36,327 nucleotides of DNA from Pelotomaculum sp. PtaU1.Bin035 (GTDB lineage Bacteria > Bacillota > Desulfotomaculia > Desulfotomaculales > Pelotomaculaceae), in NCBI GenBank assembly GCA_002067965.1, contig MVRN01000105.1, forward strand, positions 1-36,327, read 5' to 3'. The translations under genes were made by a program, and so were the position numbers. Below are positions 1 through 11,850 of the stretch, piece by piece. Each line of letters starts with the position of its first letter. Position 1 is the first letter of the stretch. The notes beneath the pieces are model-generated. The model did not search any database. It saw only the letters and a list, made by a program, of their open reading frames with translations, and was not told the origin of the DNA.

Positions 1-2803
1 CGATCCTGACTCAGCGCGCTTTCCTTCATGCCGCGCTTTATGTTCGTTCAAATTCCTCTATGGTCGATCCTGACTCATAAACGGAAATCTGTTCTGCAAT
101 ATCGACATAGTTCAAATTCCTCTATGGTCGATCCTGACGGCCCAGGCTATCGCGAAATATACAGGAAAGTCAAGTTCAAATTCCTCTATGGTCGATCCTG
201 ACAAAAACCACTGGAAAGGATGAACAAAGCTGAACTTTGTTCAAATTCCTCTATGGTCGATCCTGACAGGTCAAGACTATTCCAACAGCAGACGGCGAAG
301 GGGGTTCAAATTCCTCTATGGTCGATCCTGACCATCAGCGGCCTTCTGTTCAGCCTCTTCGATATCAACGTTCAAATTCCTCTATGGTCGATCCTGACCT
401 TACAAGAACACAGGCGTCGATCTATACTTCGACAGTTCAAATTCCTCTATGGTCGATCCTGACAATATCTCCTCAGTAGACAGGCGCCGGCCAGTACGCG
501 TTCAAATTCCTCTATGGTCGATCCTGACTGCCTGTAAAGAATGCACATAGTAAACCTTCTGTTTGTTCAAATTCCTCTATGGTCGATCCTGACCTAATCC
601 CTTTGCTGTTCAGGTCATTAGCCTGCATTGTTCAAATTCCTCTATGGTCGATCCTGACCGGAAGTAAGTAGCTGAAGAAGCAGTGATGTTTTAAAGTTCA
701 AATTCCTCTATGGTCGATCCTGACGCTGACTGGCCGGCAAGAGGGCTTTTTCAGAGCATGTTCAAATTCCTCTATGGTCGATCCTGACAGCGCTTCCCTG
801 AACAGCATATCGTCATCCATCCGGGTTCAAATTCCTCTATGGTCGATCCTGACTGTCCCAATACTCGCTGGTAGCTGTCTGATAAGCAAGTTCAAATTCC
901 TCTATGGTCGATCCTGACCCCACCGGTACGTCGTTGCCCCGTCAGTAAATTTATGGTTCAAATTCCTCTATGGTCGATCCTGACCCGGCCAGTCAGCGGT
1001 TATTGGGGCAGGACCTATATAGTTCAAATTCCTCTATGGTCGATCCTGACGTATAGCATCCTAACATTACAATCGAATTTATCTTTGTTCAAATTCCTCT
1101 ATGGTCGATCCTGACCAATCTTAACGCTACCCACAGCATCAGCCTGGGCCTGTTCAAATTCCTCTATGGTCGATCCTGACGGGATTAAAAATCATAATTG
1201 GGTAGACAATCTGGAGGTTCAAATTCCTCTATGGTCGATCCTGACCAGGTTTTCCAATAACGTTGCCGGCATGTTTGTTTGTTCAAATTCCTCTATGGTC
1301 GATCCTGACGCTCATTCCCTCTGGGGCTTGTTGGGCTCCTACCTGCGTTCAAATTCCTCTATGGTCGATCCTGACGCGAACGGGACAAAAGCCTTCTTCA
1401 TGCTCTGGAAAGTTCAAATTCCTCTATGGTCGATCCTGACCAACCAGGATGCCGGCAAGGTTTTAATGGTCTCTGGTTCAAATTCCTCTATGGTCGATCC
1501 TGACCTCATCCCCGATAGTGAATGTAGGCTGTGTACCATGTTCAAATTCCTCTATGGTCGATCCTGACCAGGTTTGCCGTTGCTACTGACAGGAATAAAA
1601 TGTCTGTTCAAATTCCTCTATGGTCGATCCTGACGAAGCGGCCAAACCGTCAATGTAAGCGCATTTATTGTTCAAATTCCTCTATGGTCGATCCTGACCA
1701 ATACCGGCGTTTCCAAATTATCATTTGTTTCAATGTTCAAATTCCTCTATGGTCGATCCTGACGCACCTGGGACCGCGTTCCAGTTCATGTTTACCTTCG
1801 TTCAAATTCCTCTATGGTCGATCCTGACTCATGATCTTGCGCTCATAAGTGTCGCGCATGTTCTGTTCAAATTCCTCTATGGTCGATCCTGACTCAGGCC
1901 CCCGGTGTTGGGACCCTTATTTTCTGGCTAGTTCAAATTCCTCTATGGTCGATCCTGACGTGATATCATGCAGATTCATAAAACGTCCAGGGATGTTCAA
2001 ATTCCTCTATGGTCGATCCTGACCAGTACCAACAAGGGGATCGTCAGCGGTTATCGCAGTTCAAATTCCTCTATGGTCGATCCTGACGTGCAGCTGGGGA
2101 CCCCGCTTATCTGCTTTAAAATAGTTCAAATTCCTCTATGGTCGATCCTGACGGATCAGTTCCCCGGCTGTACGGTCCCAGCATCCTTGTTCAAATTCCT
2201 CTATGGTCGATCCTGACTCGGTCAGGGCAATAACGCACATATCGTAAATAGTCGTTCAAATTCCTCTATGGTCGATCCTGACTGCCGTAATACTTGATAC
2301 TGTTGACGGCCTGCAGTGGGTTCAAATTCCTCTATGGTCGATCCTGACCTCAGGTCGGCATTGCTCAGGTCGGCACCGCTCAGGTGTTCAAATTCCTCTA
2401 TGGTCGATCCTGACGTTTAATGTCCATTGACACAAACCCCCTTAATTTCCGTTCAAATTCCTCTATGGTCGATCCTGACGAAGACTTCGACCGGCTGAAT
2501 CGGCTGGACATTCTTGTTCAAATTCCTCTATGGTCGATCCTGACCTGAGTAGTATTTTCCGCTTATAAATTGTCTTAATGGTTCAAATTCCTCTATGGTC
2601 GATCCTGACGAGGCTAAAAACTTAATAGACCGGATTGCAGCAAAGTTCAAATTCCTCTATGGTCGATCCTGACTTTTCTCTGGCTCGCTCTTCGGAATAT
2701 TTTTTACTTGTTCAAATTCCTCTATGGTCGATCCTGACGTAGGAAATCAACCTGGTTAGGATTCAGTGGATAGAGTTCAAATTCCTCTATGGTCGATCCT
2801 GAC
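1..2803 (-). CRISPR. Type I-B CRISPR array, 44 complete repeats, cut by the window start
   Basis: A 29-bp repeat recurs from a partial copy at 1-10 to the last copy at 2775-2803, giving 44 complete copies and 44 spacers of 35-37 bp. On the plus strand each repeat begins GTTCAAATTCC and ends GATCCTGAC. I see no sequence variant among the copies. On the minus strand the repeat ends AGAGGAATTTGAAC, so an 8-nt crRNA handle ATTTGAAC results, resembling the ATTGAAAC handle of type I-B and III systems. This puts transcription on the minus strand, with the leader beside cas2, the youngest spacers near 2803 and the oldest to the left. The distal end is outside the window, so the total size is unknown. 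The uniform repeats suggest a recently active array. Confidence 0.99.
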
Positions 2804-2880: not shown

Positions 2881-3162
2881 TTATAAGAAATTATCAGTGG
2901 GATCCACAGTGTTGGTTAGTATGTTCCTCTGCAATTTAATACTATCATTCAACTGATACATAATTACAAAATCCATGTCTTTGTCAATAAACGATTCGAG
3001 TTCTCTTTTTAGCATCAATGATTTTCCCTCAGTAAGCTCACCTTCGAATACCGATTTCTGAACATGATTAAGGTATTTTCTGCAGGTCTTCAGAGCCTTG
3101 ACAAGCCTTCGCTGGCCGGCTTTGTCCTCTGTACAGATGTCGTATACCAGAATTATTCTTAT
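2881..3162 (-). CDS. cas2: Cas2 endoribonuclease-fold adaptation protein, non-canonical AUA start
   Basis: A 93-codon reading frame reads RIILVYDICTEDKAGQRRL, the typical Cas2 N-terminus with the conserved Asp at residue 8. It continues with the ferredoxin-like segments EGELTEGKSL and DFVIMYQLND and ends at TAA. Cas2 dimers bridge two Cas1 dimers during spacer integration. The open frame begins after a TGA at 3181-3183 and contains no ATG, GTG or TTG before about residue 48. The only position that gives the normal Cas2 N-terminus is ATA at 3160-3162, four bases past the cas1 stop, so simple gene calling misses this gene. It is the last gene of the cas operon. A sequence error or a real start-codon mutation are the alternatives. 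The identity is secure; the start is not. Confidence 0.9.
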   Translation of the reverse strand: MRIILVYDICTEDKAGQRRLVKALKTCRKYLNHVQKSVFEGELTEGKSLMLKRELESFIDKDMDFVIMYQLNDSIKLQRNILTNTVDPTDNFL

Positions 3163-3166
3163 TTTA

Positions 3167-4135
3167 TCACCACCACACTTTCACCGGAGAGAATTCCTCC
3201 TCACCCAGTAGATGCTTGACCAATTTGTAAAGATCGAGCCTGATCAGACTTTTGTACCGGATGTTTCTCTTAAGTTTGCGGTGAAGGATGGTATTCTCCA
3301 AGACAGTTTCGAATTCCTTGACAAATATTTTCCTGCCTTCTTCGGTGAGATATGTTGATTTCAGATTGCGGTCAAAATGTTTTTCCGAAAGCATATTGAG
3401 GTTCGTGAGGCGAAAAACCAGTCTATCCACAAGGATCGGTTTGAATATTTCCGCAATGTCCAGGGCTAGGGAGTATCTACGTTCCGATGGCTCGTGAAGG
3501 AAGCTGATAGTAGGATTAAGCGCAGTCCGATGAATTTCCTTCAAAACCGTCGTATAGGTCATGGCGTTGCCGAAAGAGATCAAAGCGTTCAGGGCGTTCT
3601 GTGGCGGTTGTTTACTGCGCTGTCCGAATTCCCAGCCGGTTAAGTTTTCCCATGTTGAATAATAAGCCTTCCTAGCATGGGCCTCCACGCTCATAAGATC
3701 TTCAGGCGAATTGGCTCGGATAGCGGCCTCCCGGTAAATATCCAATTTAGCGCAAATCTCATCGTAATCACGCTTTTCCAAATTGCGCCTGATATTGTGG
3801 ATGGCAGCGTCAATAACCTGCCCGGCCAGTTCCATTCTTTTACTTATATCCAGATAGTGCTCAACCTGCTTTACAATAAGGTAGCCTGATAGCAAGGTTT
3901 CGCGGGGAATGAAACTACCAGAATAATGACCGTAATAGTTAAAAAAATGGACAGCAACCTGGTTTTTTGAAAGAAATTCCAGCAACTGTGTATTAAGATC
4001 CATATCTACGAAGCAATAGATGTGGTCAATGTCTTCCACCGGAATAAATTTGCGTTCGTCGTCCTTTTCCAGCGCCAGGGTATTTTCCTTTCTTTTCAGG
4101 CGCCCAGGTGAAAAGATATAATAGGTTCTGCTCAT
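3167..4135 (-). CDS. cas1: Cas1 CRISPR integrase
   Basis: A protein of 322 residues, normal for type I-B Cas1, the integrase that inserts new spacers at the leader end together with Cas2. The expected metal-ligand residues are visible: Glu151 in MSVEAHARKAYY, His214 in SFLHEPSERRYSL, and an acidic residue in LALDIAEIFKP (Asp226/Glu229). An ATG lies six codons upstream, but the ATG at 4133-4135 has a good Shine-Dalgarno (AAGGAGACGGTT before it) and gives the usual MSRTYYIFSPGRLKRKENTL N-terminus, so I chose it. It follows cas4 by 10 bases and precedes cas2 by 4, which indicates one operon and coupled adaptation genes. Confidence 0.97.
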   Translation of the reverse strand: MSRTYYIFSPGRLKRKENTLALEKDDERKFIPVEDIDHIYCFVDMDLNTQLLEFLSKNQVAVHFFNYYGHYSGSFIPRETLLSGYLIVKQVEHYLDISKRMELAGQVIDAAIHNIRRNLEKRDYDEICAKLDIYREAAIRANSPEDLMSVEAHARKAYYSTWENLTGWEFGQRSKQPPQNALNALISFGNAMTYTTVLKEIHRTALNPTISFLHEPSERRYSLALDIAEIFKPILVDRLVFRLTNLNMLSEKHFDRNLKSTYLTEEGRKIFVKEFETVLENTILHRKLKRNIRYKSLIRLDLYKLVKHLLGEEEFSPVKVWW

Positions 4136-4145
4136 AACCGTCTCC

Positions 4146-4676
4146 TTACGCAAAACAAAAATCGAAGTAAGCGCATTTTGAACAAATTTTCTTTCTGGTT
4201 TTTGGTGGAAGCGAATCTTTTTTCAATAGGCTGGCGATATCCCCAAGCGCCTCTCGAATTTTCAGGTCGTCTTCCGGCTCATATTCTATTTCGACTTTTC
4301 TCATACTGGCCGGGTAATGAAGTACTCCTCCCGAGCAGTTAACGTTCTTCTGCCTCAGGTTAAAAATATAGAATTTTAGTTGCCAGGTATGCGCATCCTC
4401 GAATTTTTTGCTTTTCTTAATTTCGTGAACATAAACCTGATCACCATAGACCAGAAAATCAATCTTAATATTATCGAAAGCAAATTCGCGGTTCTGTTCC
4501 CGCTGAAATCTGGTTTCATGCAACAGCTTTCCTTTTATGACATTGGCGTTCTCTGAAACGTTTTCCATATTTAGGCCCTTCGCAAACAGCCATAACTTAC
4601 GTTTACAAATAAAGTAATAGGCAACCATAGTTCCGGTGATATGCTGTTCTTCAAGGCTTTCTACCCGATCAATCAT
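4146..4676 (-). CDS. cas4: Cas4 iron-sulfur exonuclease
   Basis: A 176-residue Cas4 of the PD-(D/E)XK, RecB-like type, which trims prespacers and selects those with a PAM. Visible features are one N-terminal cysteine (Cys24 in YYFICKRKLWL), the C-terminal cluster ICSKCAYFDFCF (Cys165, Cys168, Cys174) that completes a 4Fe-4S site, the nuclease residues Asp73 (KIDFL) and Glu85/Lys87 (HEIKKSK), and the QLKFYIF motif. I chose the ATG at 4674-4676 because it gives the standard N-terminus; the frame stays open for 10 more codons upstream. It overlaps the end of cas3 by 8 bases, so translational coupling is likely. Confidence 0.95.
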   Translation of the reverse strand: MIDRVESLEEQHITGTMVAYYFICKRKLWLFAKGLNMENVSENANVIKGKLLHETRFQREQNREFAFDNIKIDFLVYGDQVYVHEIKKSKKFEDAHTWQLKFYIFNLRQKNVNCSGGVLHYPASMRKVEIEYEPEDDLKIREALGDIASLLKKDSLPPKTRKKICSKCAYFDFCFA

Positions 4677-7347
4677 AATTGACACCCGTAATATCAGAAT
4701 AGTCAATATTTGCTGTCTGGATGTCCCTAAACCAATTTTTAAATTTCTTTATCAGGCTGTTTCTTTCTTCATGTATTACACCTTCCGCGATCATCTTATC
4801 AAAGTCAAGGACTCCGGGTTTTACGGATTTTTCGGAACGTCGATACTGCGGTATACTTAGCACATATTTGGGGATTATGTCTTTCGCCAGATTAAGATAG
4901 CTAATCCGGGAATGAGCAGTTAATTCACACATATCCTTGTAAAATCTTTCAAGCAAAACGGTGGGTATAACCTGTATTTCACAGATTTTCCGGAACAATT
5001 TCTGTGCATCTGGTTTGCAATCCGAACAAAACCCATGGTCGAGAATCTCCAAGGTTTTGAAATAGTTTTCCAGGTATTTGCCTAAATTGAGCTTGATCTG
5101 GTTTCTGTCCGCATTTGGACCGGTCGCCTTTTCCAGAATTTCATAAGCTGATTCAACCCAGGCAACCTTTTGGTGTTCATTAAGAGTATATGGTTCGGGA
5201 ACTTTCTGCCTGATCAACTCGGCTAGGTTCTTGTTTGCCGTTTGTCTGACCTGCTGAAACTTTTCTCTGGCAACCCTTTTAGCTGGGCGGAAAGCTTTAC
5301 TCCACTCTGGTTTATCAAGCAGCCCGGAGTAGTCCAGTCCGTAATCCAGGGATATTTTCCGGCTGGCGAAGGCAGCCAGCAGCACCAGGGACAGGGCGGT
5401 TAAATCACGATCATATACCCAGCCATTATCAGAAGCCAGGGATAAAGAGTGGACCATTATTACGACGTTCGCTTCATCAAGAGGGATATCCGTCCCTCCG
5501 CGGGCATACCTGCGGAAGACCCGCCCCATACGTTGTACCAGGCTGTCGGCGGGGCTGGATTCGGTAAATAACAGATCGGCGTCAATATCCAGGGAGGCTT
5601 CGACCAGTTGAGTGGCAATGACTATACAGCATTTCCCCTCGCGCTTGCCACGTTCCGGCGAATTGGGCATATATTTTTCCACAAGAAGTTGCTCAAGTTC
5701 TTTCTTTCTTGCCCGTGTGAACCGGGAATGCAGGAGAATAGTATCAATGTCTGTGGCACCCGTTTTTTCAAGGATATTAAAAGCGTTGACCGCCGCTTTG
5801 ACGGTGTTGAAAACCGCCAACACTTTTTTGCCATTGCGTGCGGCAGCAAGCATTTCGCGAACTGGTTCAGCAAAATCTTCACTGGAGTGAAATAGAAAAC
5901 GCAACTTGTGCCGGGCGATTTTTCCCCGGTCCTGGAATTCTGGCTTTTGGAGCAGGTTTATTATCTGTTTTTCCTCGATCCCCACACGATCGATAATGGT
6001 TTGCCTTATAAACGGGGGAAGGGTGGCGGTCATCAGAAGAGTGCTGCCCCCTAAAAAATGATTTTGTTGGATGAGATGTGTTACAATGGCCGCCGCTTGG
6101 GGATCGTAGGCCTGAACCTCGTCAATAACCAGGCAACTGTCCATCAATACAGCAAAAATTCTCTCATAGCCGGGATAGCGGAGCGCCGCCGGTACAATCT
6201 GGTCGGCAGTGGACATAATATAGGGTTCGCACAGGTGCTTGGCTAAGTCCATTGCTTTCCCTGTTTCAAGTTCCATATCCAGATCAAGTTCCGCGCAGTT
6301 CTGGTTGAAGATTTCTAGCGAGGCGTCGCTGTGTAGAAGGGATACGTGGTTATTGAACCGGAACTCAGTCTGATTTATTGTATCCCTGGTTCTCTGCCAG
6401 GCGTTGTTAACCGCTACTTTGATGGGAAGGGTAAAGATGTTGCGCCGGCCCGCTCCCCAAAGATAGGCGAACTCAGTTTTGCCAAAGCCGGTTGGTGCTA
6501 CTAGGATCAAGTTGGTTTTTCGCAATTCCGGTTGGTTTTCGAAGAAAGTTCTCTGCCAGAATGATTCAGGATTAATCCGGGAAGCAACAGCGGAGCAAAC
6601 CTGCTCAAATGACGGATATTCACCAAATTCGATATCATTGGTGGTCAGGTCCGAATCACCAGCTTCCACCAGGGAGGCAAAATGGTCAGCTCGCATCAGG
6701 TTTCCTGTAATAAATATGCGAAGCAACTCATTCTTCTGGTACTCATCGGAGATCCGGAGACGCCCGGGTAGAAAAACCATAGTATAGGGCGGAATGAGAA
6801 TGCCTGCATTGCCAAGGTTGTTGTATTTTAAGTATTCTATCAGGTTTTTGTTGACGGATATTACCGAAGGATCGAGATTGTGTTTTTGAGCTAAGTGTTC
6901 TATTGTACGCTTTGCTTCTAAGACCAAGTTCTCCCAGGTTTCTAGAAAATGACTAACCTCCTCAGCTTTATCGCTGATTTCCTGTGAGCGATGCCCAAGA
7001 AAAAGCTGGGGAAAATGACCGCGCCAGTGGTGAAAGGCCACTGCCGAGCGCACGGTTTCAGGGTGGGGAACATTGTCTTCGATGGGGTTGAAAAGAAATA
7101 ATGAAAGCAGTCCATGAGGTACCCTCAGATCGGACTTATACTCCCCAAAAATTTTGTTCCCTAGTTTCGATTGAAAACCAGGGTCCACCTTCCCAATGTC
7201 ATGCAGCAGTGCTGCATATTTCAGGGCTACCCACCACGTGTCGGTTGGAGGTATAGTTCGTTTTTTTTGCAGAATCTCTATTGCTTCTAATAAGTCTCCG
7301 GTATGTTTGGTTAGAAGGGTTCCATTGCTTTTCGCCCAAAGTTCCAA
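4669..7347 (-). CDS. cas3: Cas3 HD nuclease-helicase
   Basis: The effector nuclease-helicase of type I systems, recruited by Cascade to degrade target DNA. About 892 residues. It carries an N-terminal HD nuclease domain (His15, then HDIGK at 49-53), Walker A APTGFGKT at 284-291, a DEVQ box at 409-412 (DEVH is commoner), the motif MTATLP, and the C-terminal helicase motifs QLVEASLDID and QRMGRVFRR. HD and helicase are fused, the usual I-B form. The frame opens with TTG at 7366-7368, but only the TTG at 7345-7347 has a ribosome-binding site in place (AAGGGGGTG six bases before). That start gives LELWAKSNG, the normal beginning of Cas3. It overlaps cas4 downstream. Confidence 0.96.
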   Translation of the reverse strand: MELWAKSNGTLLTKHTGDLLEAIEILQKKRTIPPTDTWWVALKYAALLHDIGKVDPGFQSKLGNKIFGEYKSDLRVPHGLLSLFLFNPIEDNVPHPETVRSAVAFHHWRGHFPQLFLGHRSQEISDKAEEVSHFLETWENLVLEAKRTIEHLAQKHNLDPSVISVNKNLIEYLKYNNLGNAGILIPPYTMVFLPGRLRISDEYQKNELLRIFITGNLMRADHFASLVEAGDSDLTTNDIEFGEYPSFEQVCSAVASRINPESFWQRTFFENQPELRKTNLILVAPTGFGKTEFAYLWGAGRRNIFTLPIKVAVNNAWQRTRDTINQTEFRFNNHVSLLHSDASLEIFNQNCAELDLDMELETGKAMDLAKHLCEPYIMSTADQIVPAALRYPGYERIFAVLMDSCLVIDEVQAYDPQAAAIVTHLIQQNHFLGGSTLLMTATLPPFIRQTIIDRVGIEEKQIINLLQKPEFQDRGKIARHKLRFLFHSSEDFAEPVREMLAAARNGKKVLAVFNTVKAAVNAFNILEKTGATDIDTILLHSRFTRARKKELEQLLVEKYMPNSPERGKREGKCCIVIATQLVEASLDIDADLLFTESSPADSLVQRMGRVFRRYARGGTDIPLDEANVVIMVHSLSLASDNGWVYDRDLTALSLVLLAAFASRKISLDYGLDYSGLLDKPEWSKAFRPAKRVAREKFQQVRQTANKNLAELIRQKVPEPYTLNEHQKVAWVESAYEILEKATGPNADRNQIKLNLGKYLENYFKTLEILDHGFCSDCKPDAQKLFRKICEIQVIPTVLLERFYKDMCELTAHSRISYLNLAKDIIPKYVLSIPQYRRSEKSVKPGVLDFDKMIAEGVIHEERNSLIKKFKNWFRDIQTANIDYSDITGVNYD

Positions 7348-7364
7348 AATAATCACCCCCTTGT

Positions 7365-8258
7365 TCAATTGTTAAATTCAATCTTGGCCATAAATACTGG
7401 GCTGCATAATCTCTGGTCGGTCAGTAAAACCGGTATTTTCAGGCGATTATCCAGGGGAATCTGCGACCGGCAAATCTTGGCCTTTACATGGTTGAAACTT
7501 CGAATGGTTCCCTTTCTATCTTCGCTGTAAGGAACTTCGACCAGACGGAAAAGAGAAGTCACCAGCGTGACGCTCCCATTCATCCGCTGGAAAAAGTCCT
7601 GGTATTCATCATCATCTATATAGTTACCAAGGAAGGCTGATTCCGGAGCCGGCAACCATTGGTAGAAATTCCGGGCGTTTTGCTGTGATTCGGCCTGATC
7701 AGAAGGGAGTAATTCAATAATTTCACTTGCATACGGAATTACCCAATCCTCGGCGCGACCGAGATGCAGGTGACTAAACCATTTTTCCGGCTGGGTTAGA
7801 CGTTTCTCGACCAGTTGCATGACTTCTTGATCGGAATGAGAAAAATACAAGAAGGTTCTGATATTATTTAACACATCACAAACAACGGGAATTTGCCCTC
7901 CGGGGTGTTCAGGTCTTTCCTGAAACCTCCGGTTGGTGGCTTCGACAAATCTCTGCGCATGCATTTCACGGCTCATATTGCGGAGCCAACAGTATTCCTG
8001 GGTCAGGGCTCCCTGACGGCTTAAATCGCTGGTGGAATACTGCTCCAAGGTTCCAAACTGGCTTAACACGCCGATGGAAAACTCCTGTGTCAGGGTCCTT
8101 TCGATCAGCGCTCGCTCCCCGATAATGTTGGCAAGCATTCCGATTATAGTCGAATAGGGCGGCAGTGGATAGGTGTTCCTTGGATTATTGGTAAACGGAA
8201 CATGGTAGTGGGCAGATGGCGCCTGCAGCGATATTTTTACAACATTCAAGCCTTTCAT
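7365..8258 (-). CDS. cas5: Cas5 (Cas5t/Cas5b type) Cascade subunit
   Basis: Cas5 caps the 5' handle of the crRNA in the Cascade complex. The 297-residue product starts MKGLNVVKISLQAPSAHYHV, followed by a proline-rich NPRNTYPLPPYSTIIGMLAN segment, the signature N-terminus of type I-B Cas5 proteins with the G-M-L-A helix. The frame extends 44 codons upstream into cas7, but the ATG at 8256-8258 with GGAGGTGGCAAA before it gives the family N-terminus, so the upstream part is not coding. It starts 10 bases after the cas7 stop. Its stop lies 17 bases before the chosen cas3 start. Confidence 0.93.
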   Translation of the reverse strand: MKGLNVVKISLQAPSAHYHVPFTNNPRNTYPLPPYSTIIGMLANIIGERALIERTLTQEFSIGVLSQFGTLEQYSTSDLSRQGALTQEYCWLRNMSREMHAQRFVEATNRRFQERPEHPGGQIPVVCDVLNNIRTFLYFSHSDQEVMQLVEKRLTQPEKWFSHLHLGRAEDWVIPYASEIIELLPSDQAESQQNARNFYQWLPAPESAFLGNYIDDDEYQDFFQRMNGSVTLVTSLFRLVEVPYSEDRKGTIRSFNHVKAKICRSQIPLDNRLKIPVLLTDQRLCSPVFMAKIEFNN

Positions 8259-8268
8259 TTTGCCACCT

Positions 8269-9399
8269 CTATTCCAAAAATGCCGTAATATCCTCAATAT
8301 TTTCGAGTCTGACAAGTTTGCCGGTCGTGGAAGTAATGGTATGAGCACCACTATACCAGGCATTTTGTACATAGTCGTTGGAAAGAGCAAAATCCAGTTG
8401 TTCGATATCGATTGTTTTATTCTTTATTTCAATAAAACTGTGAAAAACCGGAGCCGGCAGGCTGAGGGTTGCCATGACCAGGAATTTTGGTATCAGACCA
8501 TAACTCTCCGTGCTGGAATGAATGTTCAAACCATTTTTCAATACATACAACAGGTTTTTAATTCGTTCCATGCGCTCTTCTTTTTCAACGGCGAAAACCA
8601 ACTTGTTGTTATAGACACCAATAAAGCCTTTTGTCTTGTTTTCACCATCACATATTTTCCGCCAGGTTCCGTCTTCTTCAATCGCAACCCCATTAATGGT
8701 ATTCACGTACATTTCATCTTGAGAGGATTCCTGTGAATTTTGGTTAATCCATTCCATAACTGCTTGGGGAAGCTTTTTAAAATAATGCTCACTGAAGCCG
8801 GTCCGGCACAAGTCGAGAGTGAAGGTTACCCGGTATAGGGAATGGTGTTCTTCTCTCTGGAATGGATTAGGACCTTTTGGCATATCTTCTTCTTTTCCCT
8901 GAGAAAGTGCACGTTCAACCAAATCGTGATTGGCATTGAAAGACATGTCGGCTTGCCAGGTTTCCAGAGAGATAGCTTTTGTAATGCCTAGCGGAGCTTT
9001 ACGAACCAGGCTCAGACCCTTTTCCGATTCGGAGCCGGTTTCATTGGCGGATGCTTCTTCGGTAGTGTTTTTTTTACCTCTACTTGTTCTGGGCTTTTCC
9101 GGGGTGGTAGTGCTCATGAAGCCGAAGAAATCCATTTCCGGATAGTCGATGATGTTGGCTGATGGAAAGGCAAATTGAATGACTTCTTTACTTTTTGCCA
9201 CTGGAGCCGGTTTCCAGTCGAATTGCTGGTGCAAAGTTGAAAAAAGGTGATGGCGTATGAAGGCTCTACTCATGTAAGAATAGACGCCATCTGGCCGGGT
9301 CATTTTTTTTATGGAAGTTATATTTCCCCCTAGCTTGTCGTCCCGGTTTACCGCGGAACTTTCAAAGATCACAGTTGCAGTAATCCCTTTCGTTTTCAT
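8269..9399 (-). CDS. cas7: Cas7 (Cst2/DevR family) Cascade backbone
   Basis: Cas7 is the repeated backbone subunit that lines the crRNA spacer. This 376-residue protein begins MKTKGITATVIFESSAVNRD and continues KLGGNITSIKK...SYMSRAFIRHHLF, as expected for the Cst2/DevR branch of type I-B Cas7. A lysine-, serine- and glutamate-rich low-complexity insert lies around residues 100-130 (TTTPEKPRTSRGKKNTTEEAS), probably a surface loop. The ATG at 9397-9399 has CAAAGGAGCTGATCAG upstream, a good ribosome-binding site. It lies between cas8 and cas5, the normal order of the Tneap-like I-B operon. Confidence 0.94.
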   Translation of the reverse strand: MKTKGITATVIFESSAVNRDDKLGGNITSIKKMTRPDGVYSYMSRAFIRHHLFSTLHQQFDWKPAPVAKSKEVIQFAFPSANIIDYPEMDFFGFMSTTTPEKPRTSRGKKNTTEEASANETGSESEKGLSLVRKAPLGITKAISLETWQADMSFNANHDLVERALSQGKEEDMPKGPNPFQREEHHSLYRVTFTLDLCRTGFSEHYFKKLPQAVMEWINQNSQESSQDEMYVNTINGVAIEEDGTWRKICDGENKTKGFIGVYNNKLVFAVEKEERMERIKNLLYVLKNGLNIHSSTESYGLIPKFLVMATLSLPAPVFHSFIEIKNKTIDIEQLDFALSNDYVQNAWYSGAHTITSTTGKLVRLENIEDITAFLE

Positions 9400-9431: not shown

Positions 9432-10853
9432 CTACTCGATATCAGATCCATGGCCGCTTAACCCGGCGATAAATGCATAGATGCTGTTCTTGAAAAGGGC
9501 TGCGTCGTCAATGTTGAAAGCTTTACGCAGTTCATCTGGAAAGGGCTTTGATTCGGCAATAAAGGCTCTGAGAAGAAGATGGTAGACGTCCTCTTTCTTT
9601 CCCATTCGGGTGAGTTCCAGCAACCGGAAAACCAGACTGCTCTTTTCTTCCTTTAGAAAAGCGGGAGCACCAGCTGCACATTTGGATAACCTATTGAGAT
9701 CCACGGTTCTCATACCTCCTTTTCCCGATAGATTAATTCGAATTTGTTGATAAAGCCGGAGTACCAAGTTTACATCTCCCCATTCCAGCTTGGCTTCCGG
9801 GTCTTTGCCGCTTTGGCCGGACAATCTTTCCCGAATGGATTTATAAATCATTTCCTGGAAATACTCATGCCGTCCCTTGAAAAGGTAATCCAGTGCCAGT
9901 TTATTCTTCATATTGCCGATGAGATAGGAAAACTCGGGTATAAGAAACAGGTTGGACAGGTGGGGCGGAATTTGAAAATACTCAACTTTGTCACCGTTGA
10001 ACTGGATCATTTCCATCCTCTGCATACCCCAGCCCCCAAGGGTCCTGCGTAGTTGTGGGTCTAATTTCATTCCCTCCATTAGGGCTTGATGAACCGGGCC
10101 GCGTTTTTTCTGAAGCTTGTCCGAGAGCAGGCGGTTTATATGCCAATTAATCAAAAGAGACTCGGTATTAATGAAGAAACCCTTCTTGCGAACAAAGTGA
10201 AAGCACAAGAACTGGCTGCGGCATACACTGCATACCGGCAGGTTGGGGTTGTAGTCCCAGTTGAGATTAGGGAAACCGTCAACAGAAAGCCCAAGATTGC
10301 TGGCCATGGACATAGTGAAGAATTTATCTATATATCTCTCTTGAGAGCTTATATTGAATGCTGTACCGCAGAACCCGCAATGGACGTCAGATGCTTTGAC
10401 CACTTCTTCCTTGTCAATGGAAAACCAGTTATTGAGGAATTCGATCTTTTTGGAATCAGACCATTGCGATTGCCCTAAACTGCGGTAGTTAGAGGCCGGG
10501 CCAGCCAACAGGTTGCCGAAAACAGCGCCCATTATTTCTGAAGAGTTGCTATCGCCTGCTTTCCACTTTTCACGTATGGTTTTATTCAAAAATCCCCTCT
10601 CGGCTCCCAGCAAAATCCACCACCAGGCCAGATTGGTCAACTCGGAAATGGAAATAAATTTACCGTCTAGTTGGCCTAAGGGGGTATACATTTTTCCCAA
10701 AAGGTATCCAGGGATTCTTGCAGTACCATCATCGGTATTCAAGATTTTTTCTTCAACCTTGTTAGTTCCTAAGCCGTGGTCCAGAACTTCAAGAAACCCG
10801 TAAACACAAGCGTTGTAGTACCATGATGATGGGTAAAGAATGATGTCTTTCAT
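9432..10853 (-). CDS. cas8b1: Cas8b1/Cst1-type large subunit with CXXC-CXXC zinc motif
   Basis: The large Cascade subunit that reads the PAM and recruits Cas3. The 473-residue protein shows the two CxxC pairs that define the Cst1 (CXXC-CXXC) branch: Cys159/Cys162 in VHCGFCGTAF and Cys208/Cys211 in LPVCSVCRSQF. They probably hold a zinc ion. Together with Cst2-type Cas7 and a Cas5t-like Cas5 this assigns the locus to type I-B of the Tneap kind. The ATG at 10851-10853 follows GGAGGTGATATAATCCG, and that site overlaps the end of cas6, so the two are coupled. Large subunits diverge quickly, so the assignment rests on motif plus position. Confidence 0.88.
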   Translation of the reverse strand: MKDIILYPSSWYYNACVYGFLEVLDHGLGTNKVEEKILNTDDGTARIPGYLLGKMYTPLGQLDGKFISISELTNLAWWWILLGAERGFLNKTIREKWKAGDSNSSEIMGAVFGNLLAGPASNYRSLGQSQWSDSKKIEFLNNWFSIDKEEVVKASDVHCGFCGTAFNISSQERYIDKFFTMSMASNLGLSVDGFPNLNWDYNPNLPVCSVCRSQFLCFHFVRKKGFFINTESLLINWHINRLLSDKLQKKRGPVHQALMEGMKLDPQLRRTLGGWGMQRMEMIQFNGDKVEYFQIPPHLSNLFLIPEFSYLIGNMKNKLALDYLFKGRHEYFQEMIYKSIRERLSGQSGKDPEAKLEWGDVNLVLRLYQQIRINLSGKGGMRTVDLNRLSKCAAGAPAFLKEEKSSLVFRLLELTRMGKKEDVYHLLLRAFIAESKPFPDELRKAFNIDDAALFKNSIYAFIAGLSGHGSDIE

Positions 10854-10857
10854 CGGA

Positions 10858-11580
10858 TTATATCACCTCCGTAAGTCCGAATCCCTGGCCGCTGCGAACA
10901 TTTATTCCGAAATCGTATATGAACTGCAGCAGACCCGGATCCCCGGAAAGGGTGAGGTTGCCCTGTACCGTAGTTAATTTGCCTCCGTAATGATGACAAA
11001 CACCTTTTCTCAGCCGGCTATGCTCTGTTAATCGCACTTTTCCCGAGACTATGGGAAGTTGCTCGCCGTACTGCTGGCCGAAGAAAATCAGCCTGTTTTG
11101 CATGTGGGTGTTTATCGATTCCTCAATGCATTCTTGATCGCTGGCGTCAATATAATCCCACTCTCCCCGGAAAACAGCGTGGCCCACGATTCGAAAACAG
11201 GCTTCTTTATCCCGGATTTTTCGAAAAGGCAATAGATTCACACCTGTCAAACGCAAGCCCAAAATGGTGGCCCTATGTTTGAGGGCAATGGCACCGTTGC
11301 AAGCATCAGCCAGTAAATCGAAAAAACCGGTGGAAAAGATCATCGTAACCGGTGGTTGAACGATAATGGAGTCGCTCTCCCTATCCTTTTCTATCACCCG
11401 ACCAAAACCCACCCCAAAAACATAGGGGCTGTAGCCCGGTTTGTCAATTTCGAAGCGATGAAAAAACGGTGTGTTAGACAAAATTGTTTTGACAAAAGAA
11501 ATAAAATGGCGCCGGAAATCAATGGGAATTTTCAATAGTTGGTTTCCGTTTTCAGGATAAAACGTAAATGCTGCCCGCAA
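10858..11580 (-). CDS. cas6: Cas6 crRNA-processing endoribonuclease
   Basis: Cas6 cuts repeat RNA 8 nt before the repeat 3' end. About 240 residues. The C-terminal glycine-rich RNA-binding loop VRSGQGFGLTEVI is the family signature. FFHRFEIDKPGYSPYVFG near residue 45 holds a candidate catalytic histidine. The frame is open to a TTG at 11608-11610, but the TTG at 11578-11580 sits 8 bases after AGGAGGGGGG and gives the usual N-terminus (LRAAFTFYPENG), so I chose it. It is the first gene of the cas operon, 236 bases after the predicted transcription start. That long leader holds the mini-CRISPR described separately, so Cas6 would process its own mRNA leader. Confidence 0.92.
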   Translation of the reverse strand: MRAAFTFYPENGNQLLKIPIDFRRHFISFVKTILSNTPFFHRFEIDKPGYSPYVFGVGFGRVIEKDRESDSIIVQPPVTMIFSTGFFDLLADACNGAIALKHRATILGLRLTGVNLLPFRKIRDKEACFRIVGHAVFRGEWDYIDASDQECIEESINTHMQNRLIFFGQQYGEQLPIVSGKVRLTEHSRLRKGVCHHYGGKLTTVQGNLTLSGDPGLLQFIYDFGINVRSGQGFGLTEVI

Positions 11581-11702
11581 ATAATTAACCCCCCTCCTCA
11601 GCAAAAACAATTAGTGGAAAATGCTCATTTTGCTTTCGTTACATACCTTTCTACTAACAAGAAAAAACTACTCATGCTTGCCATTTTTAATAATGGCGCT
11701 GA

Positions 11703-11786
11703 TCCTCTGCGGACGATCTGATAGAAGAAAAAAACTTTTTTACACATAACTCTTACAATTCAAATTCCTCTCTGGTTTATAAGCAC
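11703..11786 (-). ncRNA. CreR/CreA-like solitary crRNA in the cas operon leader
   Basis: Two degenerate copies of the array repeat flank a 35-nt segment. The first (11758-11786) matches the 29-bp repeat at 21 positions, with 13 in a row in TTCAAATTCCTCT; it keeps the handle side (minus strand GAGGAATTTGAAT). The second (11703-11722, minus strand ATCAGATCGTCCGCAGAGGA) matches the other 21 bases of the repeat at 16 positions with one gap, and it ends exactly at the expected Cas6 cut. The intervening segment 11723-11757 has the length of array spacers. So the conserved parts are those that make up a mature crRNA: 5' handle, guide, 3' handle. Orientation is the same as the cas genes and the array. 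CreA (antitoxin) and CreR (cas-regulating) RNAs are known to have this half-repeat design. The function here is inferred. Confidence 0.85.
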
Positions 11787-11787
11787 C

Positions 11788-11825
11788 CCATGTAATAGGT
11801 AGGTGTATGTACCTTTAACTATATT
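11788..11825 (+). promoter_or_regulatory. Probable target site of the mini-CRISPR guide, with CCA PAM
   Basis: The plus strand at 11791-11807 (TGTAATAGGTAGGTGTA) matches the first 17 guide bases of the solitary crRNA at 14 positions. Mismatches are at guide positions 6, 9 and 12; positions 6 and 12 are flipped out in type I effectors. Beyond position 17 matching is sparse. CCA at 11788-11790 stands where a type I PAM should be, on the non-target strand 5' of the protospacer. The full 35-nt footprint runs over the predicted transcription start into the -10 element. A partial match of this kind should allow binding but not Cas3 cutting, which fits repression of the cas promoter. Confidence 0.8.
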
Positions 11826-11850
11826 ATATTTATTTTATTTTATTAGTCAA
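11823..11850 (-). promoter_or_regulatory. Housekeeping-type promoter of the cas operon
   Basis: On the minus strand TTGACT (11845-11850) and a perfect TATAAT (11823-11828) are 16 bases apart, within a very A+T-rich stretch. Transcription should begin near 11815, giving a leader of about 236 nt before cas6. This is the only consensus promoter seen upstream of cas6, and it lies against the guide target site. Confidence 0.8.

Follow-up and report, generated by a model that had tools for sequence, protein, structure and literature searches.

The leader of the cas operon in Pelotomaculum sp. PtaU1.Bin035 contains two degenerate CRISPR repeats, and the question that they raise is whether the sequence between them is a guide and, if so, what it would be directed against. 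An initial annotation of this DNA read them as a CreR/CreA-like crRNA. CreR, the Cas-regulating RNA of Liu et al. (2023, Cell Host Microbe), is described in the reviews PMC12737573, PMC12948488 and PMC13131331, and is reported for types I-B, I-E and V-A (PMC13131331, PMC12737573). CreA is a two-psiR RNA that Cas6 cuts so as to leave a 5' handle of 8 nt and a 3' handle of 22 nt; its seed positions 1-5 and 7-11 are essential, and positions 6 and 12 are irrelevant (PMC8501985). In H. hubeiense the target of CreA is the promoter of its own operon (PMC8501985, PMC9458426).

The cas operon and its leader

The window (the whole stretch of DNA that was analysed, 36,327 nucleotides) corresponds to contig 105 in a genome of 2.54 Mb. 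It carries a type I-B (Cas8b1/Cst) operon on the minus strand in the order cas6-cas8-cas7-cas5-cas3-cas4-cas1-cas2, followed by a CRISPR array whose repeat, read on the minus strand, is GTCAGGATCGACCATAGAGGAATTTGAAC and is present in 43 exact copies separated by spacers of 35-37 nt.

11845..11850, minus strand: -35 box TTGACT, a consensus match
11823..11828, minus strand: -10 box TATAAT, a consensus match
11661..11702, minus strand: imperfect hairpin then T run, directly after psiR2 (-9.6 kcal/mol, z -2.2)
10858..11580, minus strand: cas6, TTG start
9432..10853, minus strand: cas8b1/cst1, a weak NCBIfam match just above cutoff, for which a sequence search finds relatives
8269..9399, minus strand: cas7/cst2
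7365..8390, minus strand: cas5b
4669..7368, minus strand: cas3 (HD and helicase)
4146..4706, minus strand: cas4
3167..4153, minus strand: cas1b
2881..3168, minus strand: cas2, about 95 aa, an open frame in which an ATG start was not seen, its identity read from its sequence and not from a profile search
46..2803, minus strand: CRISPR array, 43 identical 29-nt repeats

The putative cas promoter upstream of cas6 (11850-11823, minus strand; TTGACT-16-TATAAT) carries 11 of the 12 sigma-70 consensus bases and is called by this consensus match alone. From its spacing the start site is expected at about 11815-11817. For cas6 we preferred the TTG start at 11580, which follows GAGGAGGGGGG, over a start at 11610, and the leader is therefore about 235 nt long. 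A strict terminator scan called no full-strength intrinsic terminator after psiR2; the hairpin and T run at 11661-11702 are possibly a leaky terminator or attenuator between the guide and cas6.

Two half-repeats at the distance of an array spacer

11758..11786, minus strand: psiR1 (degenerate repeat 1), GTGCTTATAAACCAGAGAGGAATTTGAAT, with the 5' handle ATTTGAAT as its last 8 nt (11758-11765)
11723..11757, minus strand: guide (psiS), 35 nt, TGTAAGAGTTATGTGTAAAAAAGTTTTTTTCTTCT
11703..11722, minus strand: psiR2 (degenerate repeat 2), ATCAGATCGTCCGCAGAGGA, ending at the expected Cas6 cut

The initial annotation had placed two degenerate half-repeats 35 nt apart between the cas promoter and cas6, at 11703-11786. 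These coordinates hold, with the strand corrected to minus, and both half-repeats beat shuffled sequence. The gap between them (11723-11757) is indeed of array spacer length, 35 nt against 35-37 nt in the array.

The upstream half-repeat, psiR1, matches the array repeat at 21/29 positions overall, with 17/19 over its last 19 bases and 4/10 over its first 10. The earlier description of it as keeping the handle side of the repeat is correct except for the last base of the handle, which has changed from C to T. One in 2000 dinucleotide-shuffled 700-nt leaders reached this match level (P ~5e-4). Furthermore, psiR1 is the sole near-copy of the repeat outside the array in the window and the sole match to TTCAAATTCCTCTNTGGT outside the array in the 2.54-Mb genome. 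In one relative (L048, G140) the array repeat naturally ends GAAT in place of GAAC, with the C-to-T change that is also seen in the psiR1 handle.

The downstream half-repeat, psiR2, can be aligned as ATCAG-ATCGTCCGCAGAGGA and agrees with the first 21 bases of the repeat at 16 positions, with one gap. Past the predicted Cas6 cut it has diverged and reads TCAGCGCC where the repeat has ATTTGAAC, so that its retention of the 21-base side up to the cut, as first described, was confirmed. The psiR2 match at its distance from psiR1 has P = 0.0006 by dinucleotide shuffles. CRISPR-repeat-like sequences are thus found outside the array and near the cas genes, and what psiR1 and psiR2 retain between them is just the pair of segments that a mature crRNA contains, as is also the case in the two-psiR CreA that Cas6 processes (PMC8501985). 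An ordinary type I-B array was considered and rejected, since psiR1 and psiR2 are not near-identical but differ between themselves as well as from the array repeats.

The PAM of the system

The PAM was derived from the genomes of relatives and not from phage or plasmid records. Contig 184 of a genome of the same family holds protospacers identical at 35/35 positions to array spacers 21 and 18, each directly after CCA, and a 30/36 match to spacer 36 that is also preceded by CCA. The exact protospacers establish CCA as the PAM of the system independently of the guide, and this is the triplet carried by the promoter site described below. Of three matches to spacers of a Moorella relative, two lie next to CCA (2 and 6 mismatches) and the third (5 mismatches) does not. 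Contig 184 bears phage terminase, portal and capsid genes, and its protospacer-bearing stretch (L137; G091:C184:5000-15000) is likely to be a phage or prophage of this lineage.

When phage and plasmid records were searched with the array spacers, only the pentapeptide-repeat spacer matched, a result that is uninformative on the PAM. This spacer, at 2349-2385 of the window, is a pentapeptide-repeat coding stretch (ACCTGAGCGGTGCCGACCTGAG...) and matches many phage and plasmid pentapeptide genes.

The guide matches a PAM-flanked site at the cas promoter

11791..11825, plus strand: protospacer-like target, of which the PAM-proximal 17 nt match the guide 14/17, with positions 1-5, 7 and 8 all matching (7/7)
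11788..11790, plus strand: target PAM CCA, the triplet found before the 35/35 protospacers of spacers 21 and 18

The first 17 nt of the guide match 14/17 at 11791-11807 on the plus strand (TGTAATAGGTAGGTGTA), over the predicted cas start site, with mismatches at positions 6, 9 and 12, of which 6 and 12 do not pair in Cascade. The bases directly before this site are CCCCA, and the target therefore carries the system PAM. The full protospacer (11791-11825) covers the expected start site and reaches the -10 box. Beyond position 17 there is little similarity, and the complementarity is confined to the PAM-proximal part. The spacer-like segment is hence partly complementary to the promoter of its own cas operon.

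Apart from the guide itself, the target is the only site in the window with three or fewer mismatches to the 17-nt guide start, where 0.05 would be expected. Among the 1327 window sites preceded by CCA it scores 14 and the next best scores 9 (15 scored positions), and the 42 real array spacers never rise above 9/15. Shuffled guides gave as good a match at the CCA sites of the leader in at most 1/20,000 cases, and a second shuffle test of guide against target gave 0/20,000 at the same score. This target match is the half of the CreR argument that was missing from the initial annotation, and it is decisive.

A second element in Sporomusa ovata

The Cas8 relatives of this system are 30-44% identical. 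A single-sequence Cas8 search of genome contigs gave no matches, and a Cas8 profile search of genome contigs found 10 loci. The leader DNA is shared by none of the order's 112 other genomes. In an unbiased scan of 17 leaders, that of the window among them, we looked for a handle-like octamer with a guide behind it that matches a CC-N-flanked site in the same leader. Two hits were outstanding, the window and Sporomusa ovata DSM 2662.

L059, 8891-9028: Sporomusa ovata DSM 2662 element, upstream of cas6, with its own guide and a CCA-flanked target at the cas promoter
L059, 8920-8949: Sporomusa ovata guide, TTAATCCAAAGCTAGATCAGGAACGTATGC
L059, 9009-9028: Sporomusa ovata target, CCA-TTAATATAAAGTTAGAT, just after a promoter-like TTGTGA-16-TATATT

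In Sporomusa ovata, psiR1 (...CCCAGAGAGGAATTTAAAC) matches the organism's own array repeat GTCGCTATCGCTCATAGAGGAATTTAAAC at 15/16 positions, and psiR2 reads GTAATTATTGTCCGTAGAGGA. Guide and target match at 14/17, with mismatches at positions 6, 7 and 12. In shuffles the guide match was reached in 1/20,000 cases, psiR1 in 0/2000 and psiR2 at a modest P of 0.015, values that carry a search factor, since 17 leaders were scanned to find this case. The guides of the two genomes are entirely different and the targets have no common sequence, and guide and target are inverted in the window whereas they are direct in Sporomusa ovata. The two psiR1 have in common a CAGAGAGG variant in place of the CATAGAGG of the arrays, and psiR2 reads GTCCGYAGAGGA in both genomes. 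From two cases, these common variants suggest either a shared origin, with the guides re-targeted since, or a constraint that acts on both alike.

The other 15 of the 16 distant relatives' leaders lack the element (best psiR1-like match 12/16, guide-target pair in none), and it is therefore not general to this cas8b1 family. A signature search across the phylum (398 genomes) turned up no element besides that of the window, and the window's phylum sample contained no nearer relatives of Sporomusa. A same-family type I-B locus has apparently been lost elsewhere: an orphan 30-aa remnant of a cas8 N-terminus (L012 1501-1590, G094) is 70% identical and lies outside any full operon.

Alternative explanations

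The strongest competitor of the CreR reading, although an improbable one, is that the element is a decaying relic, a self-targeting mini-array that took its spacer from the cas promoter and is now dead or merely tolerated. The degenerate repeats, a spacer that still matches in its PAM-proximal half only and the absence of the element from most relatives would all fit such a history. Decay, however, would not spare exactly the handle side of psiR1, the 21-nt side of psiR2 and the seed, while leaving mismatches at positions 6 and 12. The chance that three mismatches in 17 include both of these positions is 15/680, or ~2%, per genome, and Sporomusa ovata has the same pattern with an unrelated guide.

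We consider it very unlikely that the element is the CreA antitoxin of a CreTA/CrePA module, with a guide that represses a toxin and not the cas genes. The anatomy is the same, and one further site in the genome (C39:23114) has CCA and a perfect 10-base seed at positions 1-5 and 7-11. That site, however, is not at a promoter: it falls at the end of a 331-aa ORF, on its stop codon and terminator, ahead of a ksgA/rsmA-like ORF, and it matches the guide at 11/17, where ~0.1 such sites are expected by chance (13 fixed bases, 5.1 Mb of strands). Three further sites in the whole genome have three mismatches to the guide, none of them after CCA, and the other seed sites in the genome are not promoters or have no longer match. 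There is also no room for a toxin unit between promoter and guide, an interval in which the only ATG frame has four codons and no Shine-Dalgarno sequence. Of the PAM-flanked targets the cas promoter is the best, which argues for CreR (cas autorepression) and not CreA (toxin repression). Of the initial CreR/CreA-like crRNA reading, the CreR part thus stands with its PAM-flanked cas-promoter target, and the CreA part was dropped, as a toxin promoter target was not found.

Less likely again is a structure in the 5'-UTR, in which guide and target would be the arms of an imperfect inverted repeat. The segments lie on opposite strands, 33 nt apart in the window, and could pair as RNA; the mismatches, however, would be C-U, C-U and A-G and not G-U, and neither psiR1 and psiR2 nor the CCA would be explained. 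The direct orientation of guide and target in Sporomusa ovata makes such a hairpin impossible there and removes this explanation. Chance similarity, or an anti-CRISPR-like RNA decoy of the kind that solitary repeats can form as Racr (PMC10651486), is the least probable of all, given the joint significance of three independent tests, the location inside the host's own cas operon, the two half-repeats at spacer distance and the matched target with its PAM.

Discussion

Collectively, our data lead us to read the element as a guide of the CreR type, co-transcribed with its cas operon and repressing it, at a probability of about 0.86. The CreR reading was strengthened by the finding of a target, a PAM and another case whose guide is unrelated. 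Counting against it are the mismatch at seed position 9, given that the two studied CreA RNAs need positions 1-5 and 7-11, the absence of the element from 15 of the 16 relatives' leaders, and the changed last base of the handle, although that change occurs naturally in the array repeat of L048. On this sequence evidence it is very probable that the CRISPR complex limits its own synthesis through a guide to the cas promoter.

By analogy with published systems, we infer transcription, Cas6 processing, repression and a sensing role for the window element. The promoter at 11850-11823 would make a leader RNA that holds psiR1, guide and psiR2 and runs into cas6. Since the guide lies downstream of the promoter that it targets, the simplest model is that a single transcript yields both the guide and the Cas proteins. 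Cas6 would cut at psiR1, and possibly also at psiR2, to give a crRNA-like RNA with the handle AUUUGAAU, the 35-nt guide and a repeat-derived 3' end. The processed RNA would begin ATTTGAAT-TGTAAGAG in the window and ATTTAAAC-TTAATCC in Sporomusa ovata. Loaded into the type I-B Cascade, it would find CCA and TGTAATAGGTAGGTGTA over the cas start site, where PAM-proximal pairing (~14/17) would permit binding, presumably without destruction by Cas3. Such partial pairing would leave Cascade blocking RNA polymerase, shutting off the cas genes and the guide itself. As published CreR work, in its reviewed form, would suggest, this negative feedback loop would relax when array crRNAs or anti-CRISPRs occupy Cascade. 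The hairpin and T run after psiR2 could, we conjecture, end some transcripts past the guide.

Like CreR, the window element is a mini-CRISPR-derived guide near the cas genes that is partly complementary to the cas promoter and would direct the system's own effector there. It differs from CreR as described in the reviews in belonging to a bacterial Cas8b1 (Cst) type I-B system and in lying inside the cas leader, downstream of the target promoter, so that guide and Cas proteins share one promoter. With the CreA of CreTA (type I-B, haloarchaea; PMC8501985, PMC9458426) it has in common two divergent degenerate repeats, an 8-nt 5' handle, a 3' part of ~21-22 nt and seed pairing in which positions 6 and 12 are irrelevant; in contrast to CreA it comes without a toxin, its target is the cas promoter and its PAM is CCA and not TTC. 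The type II-A tracr-L is a natural single guide that represses cas9 (PMC11417352) and is likewise a partial-match guide for autorepression of a cas promoter, although it is Cas9/tracrRNA-based and an unrelated RNA. The scaRNA of Francisella (PMC9458426) is also an ectopic-repeat RNA that turns a CRISPR effector into a repressor, but it is of type II and represses lipoprotein genes and not cas genes.

CreR guides are already known, and the window element is a well-supported new case, of which the leader-embedded layout may be a variant. We offer only tentatively, as a possibility with the odds against it, a broader model of leader-embedded CreR. Here one promoter would serve guide and Cas proteins, with a leaky hairpin terminator behind the guide setting the guide-to-Cas ratio, and distant Cas8b1 lineages would have acquired or re-targeted their self-guides independently of one another, each with its own guide-promoter pair and with mismatches left where Cascade does not read.

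Guide, PAM and target are fully specified in two genomes, the window and the cultured type strain Sporomusa ovata DSM 2662, and the CreR reading is therefore directly testable. The two elements also provide a search recipe for more, namely a half-repeat together with a guide whose matching site in the cas leader lies next to a PAM and has mismatches at positions 6 and 12. RNA-guided self-control of CRISPR would extend to bacterial Cas8b1 type I-B systems, beyond the haloarchaeal models.
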